Assembly (NCBI GenBank): GCA_938002665.1
Contig: CALLAE010000069.1
Span: 83,541-147,540 of the forward strand
From: an uncultured Saprospiraceae bacterium
Lineage (GTDB): Bacteria; Bacteroidota; Bacteroidia; Chitinophagales; Saprospiraceae
Length of the DNA: 64,000 bases
Reading direction: 5' to 3'
Shown: one piece after another, positions 2,695 through 5,685 of the stretch
Position numbering within the stretch: the first letter of the stretch is position 1
Layout of the letters: each line of letters opens with the position of its first letter
Position numbers and translations under genes: made by a program
The notes under the pieces: generated by a model
What the model saw: the letters and a program-made list of their open reading frames with translations, nothing else
What the model was told of the DNA's origin: nothing
The model's database searches: none

Positions 2695-5289
2695 TTACTT
2701 CCTGTTAATCTGACTGATTATTGTACCATCTTCTATTTTGTCATCTTCAGCCAGTAAGAAGGCCTTGCTCAGCACTATAGAAAGACCTCTGTCTCCTTCA
2801 AAGGGGATAAAGATATTCTTAGTTGCTGTATCAGCAGATCTAGAAGGTACGATGCATAAATACTGATCATTAGGTTCCATGAGAATATTACCACTTCCAA
2901 TGTGAATTTTGTAGGTTCTAACTTGGCCTTTGATGATCAAAAATTTTCCTACTATCTCTGCTTTGTCTCTAATCTTCTTGAGTCGAGGCAGTAGTCCCTG
3001 AAGGATTTCTTTTCTGGTTTTAGCGATTTCATTGAGGTCACCAAAGGAGTATGATTGCCAGTAATCTCTATACTCTCTGCGCTCACCATTGTTGTCCATC
3101 CACTGAGGGTCATTGCCTACACTGGCGACACCAACAAATAAATCCACATCTCTCATGATTTCTGTAAAGACCATTTTTGGCACATCTATAAGATCTAAAG
3201 TATTGCCATCTTCATCTTTAAATTTGACCTGGTCAGTAGCGACATATAGCCAGATGCCCGCTTCATTGAAAGCATCATCATGAATCAATTCGTCTATCCA
3301 ATATTCTGCAACGATACCATGCTCTGGCAAGTACTTGGAACAAGTGGAATTATCTCTACCATCATCATAAGAACCCATCAGTGCATATTTCCAGTCTCTG
3401 ATACTTGCTAGTGAATTAAACTGATGTTGTTTTAGTATATGAGCTGCCATCCTGTTAGAATAGGACTTGGTATTTATTTCTGCCTCAGTGAGAATATACA
3501 ATTCTCTGAACGCTTGCTTGATAGGTTGCTTCCATTCTAAGGCTATCATCTTCTCTCGCCAAGCTACAATTTCATCTTCTGTGGAGACTACTGGATGCCA
3601 CAGTTTTACCTTAGTATCTTCAGAAATAGAATCTATGTTTTTGCCATCTAAGGTTTTCCATCCACCCTCCTGCCATATGCCATTAGCCATTTCTTTGCCT
3701 GCTCCAAAAGACCAAATCAATTTTGAGGCAATCGGGAACACCAGACCATGGTCTAGGTAGTACTTCTTAAAGGAAGTGTAATCCCAGCTGCGATCTAGAA
3801 TAAACTGATTATCAATTCTCTGTTTTTGGGCGGAGAAGACTTTCTGTATTTCTTTGACCTCTTTCCTTGCATCTGCGAGTTTCTTCTTGAGTGCAGGTGT
3901 ATTTTTTACAATAGAAGGCACACTTTTCATGGATGAGCCATCTGGCTTTATCCATTGCTGAATGACTTTCGCTCCTTGGATGCTTATTTTTAGTTTGTAC
4001 TCTCCAAACTCAATGTTCTTTACCCCTGCCACCATACCATAATGGGGTACAGCCATTTCCTTTAGTTCCTCTACCGAGACCTTGTATTTTTTTGCACCCT
4101 CTAAGAGTAGCTTGTCTATGCTTTTCCTGACATTATTTTGCCGCACCTTAAGCTTTAGTCTGGATAAAGCGCCTAGGCCGTCTTTGCCCTTCATATTGCC
4201 TAGAATTTTGACACATGCATTTCCAATAGAGGCTGCGGCAGGGCCTTTACCAGGAATCTTTTTGTAGCACTTTTCAGCTAGGCTAGTCATCAGGAGAATA
4301 GTCTCTTTATCGGAAAAACGGCCACAAGTCCATGCTAGACCTTTGATGAAATTTTGACTTTTGTCAGTAAGGAAACTAGATTCTGTATAGGTGTAGGTAT
4401 TGCCATTCCACTCATTGGTTTTAGTAGTAATAATTACTTCCTTCTTGATAGCTGTTGCTAATAGTTTGTGGACTGTAGTTCTATAATTATCTAAGCCTAT
4501 TTTGTCTAGTTCTAAATTGATTGCTTTACTGAATTTTACTGTTGGCTTTGATCCAGAGACGCCAGCGGCTAAGTGAAAGATTCTATTGTAGTTAGTTGCA
4601 TTGTTCTTTATGCCAGCGATAACCTCATTGACTTCGTCACCGATGTCATTAGTTTTTATCTTGAAGGGGGGCTCTTCTCCATCATGTATCAGAGCTTCTA
4701 GCTTCTTTAAGGCTTTCGTCATGTCACTTCCGTAGGAGTAACGATCAGTATCTTTGAATACTTCCCAGGCCAATATAGACTCTATGTAATTCTTTAGTTT
4801 AGCGGAAAGGGAGTTAGTCTTGAGATAGTACTCTATTTGTTTGATGGAATGATTGATGGGGAGGCTACTTAGATTGAAATGGAAGGTGTGGTGGTTGCTT
4901 AGCTTATTGTCTAGATAGCAGTATTGTTCAAACAATGCCATCCATTCCTCTTCAGTATAATCAAGTTTTTTTCTCATTATACCTGCTAGCATTGCATCTA
5001 TAATATTGCAGGCATAATGAAGGTAGATTTTTCTATTGTAACTATAACCGACTACTGTTTTAGACGCCTTGATTTTAAGATCCGTGTAATGGTCTAATAA
5101 TTTTGAAATGAATTGTTTGAGCTCGTCAGCGGGCTGGGCTTTTAGCTCCTTATATTCTTCTACGTCTTTGAGGTCATTTGCACTTAAGACATAATGCGTC
5201 TTATTGTGTATCGTTTTAATTAGTGCTTTTAGCTCACTTGTAGAATCTTGCTTTTCCTTTTCATTTTTCTTTTTAAAAAAATTGAACAT
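2695..5289 (-). CDS. DUF4132 domain-containing protein (MolR/YehI-like C-terminal region)
   Basis: 864 aa ORF. The C-terminal part (WKQPIKQAFRELYILTEAEINTKSYSNRMAAHILKQHQFNSLASIRDWKYALMG) resembles the DUF4132 signature. Confidence 0.75.
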   Translation of the reverse strand: MFNFFKKKNEKEKQDSTSELKALIKTIHNKTHYVLSANDLKDVEEYKELKAQPADELKQFISKLLDHYTDLKIKASKTVVGYSYNRKIYLHYACNIIDAMLAGIMRKKLDYTEEEWMALFEQYCYLDNKLSNHHTFHFNLSSLPINHSIKQIEYYLKTNSLSAKLKNYIESILAWEVFKDTDRYSYGSDMTKALKKLEALIHDGEEPPFKIKTNDIGDEVNEVIAGIKNNATNYNRIFHLAAGVSGSKPTVKFSKAINLELDKIGLDNYRTTVHKLLATAIKKEVIITTKTNEWNGNTYTYTESSFLTDKSQNFIKGLAWTCGRFSDKETILLMTSLAEKCYKKIPGKGPAAASIGNACVKILGNMKGKDGLGALSRLKLKVRQNNVRKSIDKLLLEGAKKYKVSVEELKEMAVPHYGMVAGVKNIEFGEYKLKISIQGAKVIQQWIKPDGSSMKSVPSIVKNTPALKKKLADARKEVKEIQKVFSAQKQRIDNQFILDRSWDYTSFKKYYLDHGLVFPIASKLIWSFGAGKEMANGIWQEGGWKTLDGKNIDSISEDTKVKLWHPVVSTEDEIVAWREKMIALEWKQPIKQAFRELYILTEAEINTKSYSNRMAAHILKQHQFNSLASIRDWKYALMGSYDDGRDNSTCSKYLPEHGIVAEYWIDELIHDDAFNEAGIWLYVATDQVKFKDEDGNTLDLIDVPKMVFTEIMRDVDLFVGVASVGNDPQWMDNNGERREYRDYWQSYSFGDLNEIAKTRKEILQGLLPRLKKIRDKAEIVGKFLIIKGQVRTYKIHIGSGNILMEPNDQYLCIVPSRSADTATKNIFIPFEGDRGLSIVLSKAFLLAEDDKIEDGTIISQINRK

Positions 5290-5301
5290 TCCAGTAAGCT
5301 T

Positions 5302-5685
5302 TTAGCCACCTACTAATGGGGTGAGTTTAATAAAGGAAACTTTGGTAGAACTATCTACTAGAAATTTTTGATCTAATTGATCTACCTGCTCATCATTTAC
5401 TAAGATGAAAAAGGCATTTTTATTAAAAGCATCTAGCGCAACATAGATCTGCTTCTCTACATCTATCGCAATTTTGGCTTTCTTATTTAACCTGCTTTCC
5501 ATATCCGTGGGAAGTACTAAACCTTCTCTGTAACTGTCTAGGTTTTCTTGATATTTGAGAACTTCTAGCTTTATACGTGCAGAAATAAGTTCTTCTACAG
5601 AAATATATTCCTTTTCAAATTGGAGAGCTATTTCGTTCAATAACTTTCCTGAAGCTGATTCATCTTTGATTTTTATAGTTGTCAT
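5302..5685 (-). CDS. Small protein ending in Gly-Gly; putative ThiS/MoaD-like beta-grasp (ubiquitin-like) protein, co-directional with the DUF4132 gene
   Basis: 127 aa ORF. C-terminus FFILVNDEQVDQLDQKFLVDSSTKVSFIKLTPLVGG-stop resembles the C-terminal half of ThiS/MoaD. It lies 12 nt upstream of the DUF4132 start codon. Fold assignment is inferred by eye. Confidence 0.5.
   Translation of the reverse strand: MTTIKIKDESASGKLLNEIALQFEKEYISVEELISARIKLEVLKYQENLDSYREGLVLPTDMESRLNKKAKIAIDVEKQIYVALDAFNKNAFFILVNDEQVDQLDQKFLVDSSTKVSFIKLTPLVGG

Follow-up and report, generated by a model that had tools for sequence, protein, structure and literature searches.

A Gly-Gly-tailed putative ubiquitin-like protein and a DUF4132-DUF7737 partner form a candidate ubiquitin-like module in a Saprospiraceae bacterium and its homologues

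In the stretch of DNA analyzed here, 64,000 nucleotides from an uncultured Saprospiraceae bacterium (the window), a gene encoding a small protein that ends exactly in Gly-Gly lies immediately before a gene encoding a protein with the domains DUF4132 and DUF7737, and this pair, often joined by an E1-type activating enzyme, recurs in distantly related bacteria, among them the radiation-resistant Deinococcus. The existence of the module is well supported, and the chemistry is inferred: with a probability of roughly 0.6, the small protein is a ubiquitin-like protein (Ubl) that is activated by an E1 enzyme, with Cys812 of the partner as acceptor of the activated C-terminus. The pair looks like an undescribed ubiquitin-like system. 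With this reading DUF7737 and a group of DUF4132 proteins acquire a first proposed function, and a Ubl family that no Pfam or NCBIfam model covers is added. The reading also allows a near-ideal natural comparison between a lineage that has the Gly-Gly (GG), the cysteine and often an E1, and a sister lineage that does not. DR_A0165/DR_A0166 of Deinococcus radiodurans, reported to be induced by DNA damage, would on this view be a GG-tailed Ubl together with its partner.

Results

The features of the locus are collected in Table 1. The small ORF ends in LTPLVGG (...STKVSFIKLTPLVGG-TAA). The original prediction, which described a 127-aa minus-strand ORF with an exact Gly-Gly end at 5302-5685, agrees with the sequence and with the ORF list, and the 12 nt that it gave between the stop codon and the ATG of the DUF4132 protein match the ORF at 2695-5289. 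GG-tailed homologues in other genomes (phmmer E-values of 5e-31 to 1e-38) carry LTPLVGG or a near variant at the exact C-terminus, and for this reason the ORF is a real gene and not a chance one. The flanks of the pair look unrelated to it, with a convergent 863-aa ORF (62-2653) on one side and a right-handed beta-helix/NosD-like protein upstream. A promoter and terminator scan yielded promoter-like sites no more commonly than shuffled sequences did.

Table 1. Coordinates of the Ubl-DUF4132 locus in the window
Feature	Position	Strand	Evidence
Beta-grasp ubiquitin-like protein (Ubl), predicted, 127 aa	5302..5685	-	ORF, AF2, Foldseek, homologues
Terminal Gly-Gly codons	5305..5310	-	Sequence; kept in 34 GG-type homologues
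DUF4132-DUF7737 partner, 864 aa, 12 nt downstream of Ubl	2695..5289	-	ORF, Pfam, linkage
N-terminal part (residues 16-401), largely helical; possible alpha-solenoid	4087..5244	-	AF2, moderate pLDDT; Foldseek mostly armadillo/HEAT, none significant
DUF4132 domain, residues 451-633	3391..3939	-	PF13569, E 4e-35
DUF7737 domain, residues 756-861	2707..3024	-	PF24879, E 1e-36
Cys812 codon, candidate acceptor cysteine (...NDQYLCIVP...)	2854..2856	-	32/32 GG vs 0/18 non-GG partners

The Ubl is an accessory gene with a sporadic distribution: its profile picked out 13 genomes among 395 from the class, and homologues were present in 8 of 101 relatives and absent from 13 other genomes of the genus of the window. 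A search for DUF7737 recovered the same 13 genomes among 390 of the class, a sample that overlaps with that used for the Ubl and is not guaranteed to be identical to it. When Flavobacteriaceae were searched from DUF7737 alone, 18 genomes were found, in 17 of which the Ubl was adjacent or one gene away; the remaining locus ends at a contig edge.

Conservation of the terminal GG and recurrent adjacency to DUF4132 had been proposed as checks on the original prediction, and both were borne out. All 34 members found in the lineage of the window and in Deinococcus, which span four phyla, end exactly in GG, and the relatives that lack it form a separate lineage. DUF4132 genes adjoin 32 of these 34 Ubls, and the genomes of the other two have a DUF4132 gene elsewhere; the gap between the two genes is 15 nt or less in 27 of 30 GG pairs. 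Such pairs occur in Bacteroidota, Novosphingobium humi, Nonomuraea gerenzanensis and four Deinococcus. One of the 32 linked loci (L142, 2250-2860) shows an apparent frameshift of the Ubl before the GG, and another locus (L060, 8550-8993; G747) retains only a fragment of DUF7737; either could reflect decay or an assembly error. Shorter relatives of the Ubl that end in FVQMK (L012, 1489-1818) and FVRC (L013, 1339-1644) have no GG, and no DUF4132 was detected in their genomes.

The AlphaFold model of the Ubl (AF2, five homologues; pLDDT 79) is a beta-grasp in which two strands are followed by a helix, a helical insertion and further strands, with residues 123-127 disordered. The insertion spans residues 48-88 approximately and follows the first helix, not the first strand as had been supposed. 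The leading PDB matches in Foldseek were mostly SAMP1, MoaD (in the MoeB-MoaD acyl-adenylate complex), MOCS2A and the Urm1-like 1WGK, with E-values of 0.007-0.03, none below 0.001, and TM-scores of 0.3-0.6, and some of the top matches were unrelated beta-grasps. With moderate confidence, then, the small protein has the beta-grasp fold that was predicted for it. An independent prediction published in 2022 for the D. radiodurans homologue DR_A0165 names 5MPO, 3PO0, 1WGK and 2L52, neighbours of the same kind (PMC9650054). Searches of Pfam and NCBIfam with 28 diverse Ubls gave chance matches only, with no family that fits; the ThiS/MoaD profile PF02597 matched none of the 28 at E-values up to 0.1, and a sequence search of the PDB with the Ubl profile returned nothing relevant.

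The partner passes the curated Pfam cut-offs of PF13569 and PF24879. In the E. coli control DUF4132 is present and DUF7737 is absent. An AlphaFold model of the 864-aa protein, built from four sequences, left the C-terminal half unmodelled, with a pLDDT below 50 around Cys812. No Foldseek match to this model was significant, and most were armadillo/HEAT proteins; the N-terminal region is perhaps an alpha-solenoid. The names DUF7737 and DUF5724 were not found in the literature searched, which mostly excludes subscription papers and preprints, and DUF4132 is seldom mentioned there.

Alignment of the partners from 50 pairs showed that Cys812, within DUF7737, is present in 32/32 partners of GG-tailed Ubls, Deinococcus included, and in 0/18 partners of non-GG Ubls, where its position is occupied by Ser (13), Asn (3), Ala (1) or His (1). 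Of 47 columns that are near-invariant in the GG partners, the non-GG partners retain 37; the residue is absent throughout at Cys812 alone. A phylogeny-aware test of GG against Cys812 found one independent pair, and no significance is claimed for the correlation because a single joint loss on the tree is enough to explain it; the coincidence is a pointed clue from the alignment. A DUF7737-like protein on an Acetobacter plasmid (L118, 4831-7629) has Phe at this position, and no Ubl was detected alongside.

In the non-GG sister lineage the Ubl tails read (A/S/T/V)G(S/A/T)YW or similar, and also GGW, GRLW, GSIW and GSTY. The partners of this lineage have 1650-1750 aa, and the one that was scanned has the architecture DUF5724-DUF4132-DUF7737. 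Deinococcus has this long architecture yet retains the GG. An intermediate tail type was observed in L143 and L145, whose Ubl ends in LTFLAGGW, a GG followed by Trp, and whose partner lacks the cysteine. The Fulvitalea axinellae plasmid pFA1 (L115/L157) carries one pair of each type, GG and non-GG, side by side in divergent orientation. RlaP genes, of an RNA-repair nucleotidyltransferase family, were found upstream of one non-GG pair (L058, 9134-10228 and 13834-14589), perhaps indicating a link with RNA repair.

In ten loci, all of the GG type (L003 of Flavobacterium sp. H122, L005, L036, L037, L038, L042, L045, L055, L140 and L142), a ThiF/E1 gene encoding 230-240 aa directly follows the DUF4132 gene as the third gene. 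All ten proteins keep the nucleotide loop (GxGGL), NLxRQ, the acidic DC(S/T)D motif and the catalytic Cys. In the best tree a single branch separates these operonic E1s from 24 further E1s encoded in the same genomes, with a support of 72/92 that is not conclusive. None of the 18 non-GG loci has an operonic E1 (Fisher p 0.009 for the comparison with GG loci); about two thirds of the GG loci also lack one. No ThiF was found in G646, a complete genome of the non-GG lineage. The only ThiF found in the assembly of the window is a MoeB-like protein with a weak rhodanese-like C-terminus, encoded on another contig opposite moaD. The E1 that was not visible to the original prediction is present in the ten homologous loci, and the proposed search of the rest of the genome yielded only this MoeB-like protein; the assembly, at 87.5% completeness, may lack a second E1.

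As was originally noted, no thiamin or molybdenum cofactor (Moco) genes lie beside the Ubl in the window, and the genome carries its moaD apart from the Ubl gene, on a different contig; ThiG, MoaE and thiamin/Moco genes linked to the Ubl operons were not found. The neighbours scanned gave no Pfam match to a UBC-fold E2 or a JAB domain. No JAB deconjugase was found in the operons, and of 12 genomes a single one had a JAB match above the threshold. Among the PADLOC defence models neither the Ubl nor the partner has a match; the E1 alone does, through generic E1-E2 models.

Discussion

The module would consist of two or three genes, with a Ubl of predicted beta-grasp fold whose tail, ...PLVGG, is flexible. 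Adenylation of the terminal glycine of the Ubl would fall to a MoeB/ThiF-type E1. About a third of the loci may supply this enzyme from the operon, and the others probably rely on a housekeeping E1; in the genome of the window this might be the MoeB-like protein, which could serve both MoaD and the Ubl. The activated C-terminus would then pass to the invariant cysteine of DUF7737, and the partner may act either as an E2/E3-like acceptor or as a sulfur-transfer partner, its helical N-terminal part being the likely substrate- or complex-binding part. In the sister lineage the GG tail, the cysteine and any operonic E1 have been lost, and the two proteins probably work as a non-covalent pair.

ThiS, MoaD, SAMP1 and Urm1 share with the Ubl a beta-grasp, a flexible Gly-Gly tail and an E1 of the MoeB/ThiF type. 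Unlike them, the Ubl has 127-145 aa with a helical insertion and does not match PF02597, and its partner is a DUF4132-DUF7737 protein instead of ThiG or MoaE, with no thiamin or molybdopterin genes adjoining in the window. Bacterial Ubl-conjugation operons (the types of Iyer et al. 2006, type II CBASS, Bil-like and the FtsH-ternary tri-ligase) are likewise patchy, accessory operons with a Ubl and an E1; in the module, however, the large DUF4132 protein stands where no UBC-fold E2, RING or JAB was found. The terms MolR and WGR are absent from PMC1779556, and DUF4132 is absent from PMC7159879. YehI of E. coli shares the DUF4132 domain with the partner, as do other DUF4132 proteins, but the control lacks DUF7737, and the neighbours of yehI are MoxR, VWA and SWIM genes, among which no Ubl is annotated. 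The small protein most likely behaves as an E1-activated Ubl that lies outside both the ThiS/MoaD family, whose profile failed to match, and the E2/JAB systems.

The pair of D. radiodurans, L119, is identified as DR_A0165 (SEP068184) and DR_A0166 by the thioredoxin gene beside it and by the reported order of the genes. As in the window, a GG-tailed Ubl (LTALAGG) precedes, here by 2 nt, a DUF4132-DUF7737 protein that has the cysteine; this partner differs in its 1626 aa and in belonging to the DUF5724-bearing lineage. The genes thiS, thiG and modA lie near this pair. They bear on a possible but doubtful alternative, in which E1 and a sulfur donor would convert the C-terminus of the Ubl to a thiocarboxylate, and DUF4132-DUF7737 would be the sulfur-accepting enzyme of a thiolation (of tRNA, a cofactor or a metabolite), related to the Ubl as MoaE is to MoaD. 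Sulfur carriers are indeed the nearest folds of the Ubl, and the operonic E1s are of the MoeB/ThiF kind, with the cysteine that ThiF uses in sulfur transfer; nonetheless, the operons contain no genes for a sulfur donor, ThiG, MoaE or a thiolase, and the thiS context is missing at three other Deinococcus loci.

Equally tentative is the proposal that the Ubl serves DUF4132 as a stable subunit or as a regulator, with its tail docked in the partner, the E1 acting in some species only or being incidental. The pair does persist in 18 loci that have neither GG, cysteine nor operonic E1, one of them in the complete genome that lacks ThiF. DR_A0165 bound Trx1 and co-purified with 157 proteins, and co-purification of proteins was seen with a tag at either end (PMC9650054); since the C-terminally tagged form still co-purified proteins, this binding needs no free GG. 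Against a purely non-covalent pair stand the exact C-terminal GG in 34 homologues from four phyla and the confinement of third-gene E1s to GG loci. The reading of the GG as a coincidence in an unrelated small protein is highly improbable and was rejected on account of the invariant, conserved tail, the fold, the linkage and the association with E1.

A further and speculative step would be to regard DUF4132-DUF7737 as a Ubl transferase of the E2/E3 kind, unrelated to UBC, HECT or RING proteins, that forms a thioester at Cys812; with the Ubl and the E1 it might constitute a conjugation system of its own kind, acting in the DNA-damage response of some bacteria, D. radiodurans among them. Such a role in stress or DNA damage is suggested by the Deinococcus literature. 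A DdrO motif is present at DRA0165-DRA0166, expression of the pair rises when DdrO is depleted, and the DRA0166 protein increases with mitomycin C in an IrrE-dependent manner (PMC8533742). DR_A0165 was described as a stress peptide restricted to Deinococcus that resembles MoaD, and its deletion led to a higher antioxidant capacity (PMC9650054). The GG, an E1 and the wider family are not mentioned in the parts of either paper cited here, and the two papers conflict as to whether an RDRM/DdrO site lies upstream of DR_A0165.
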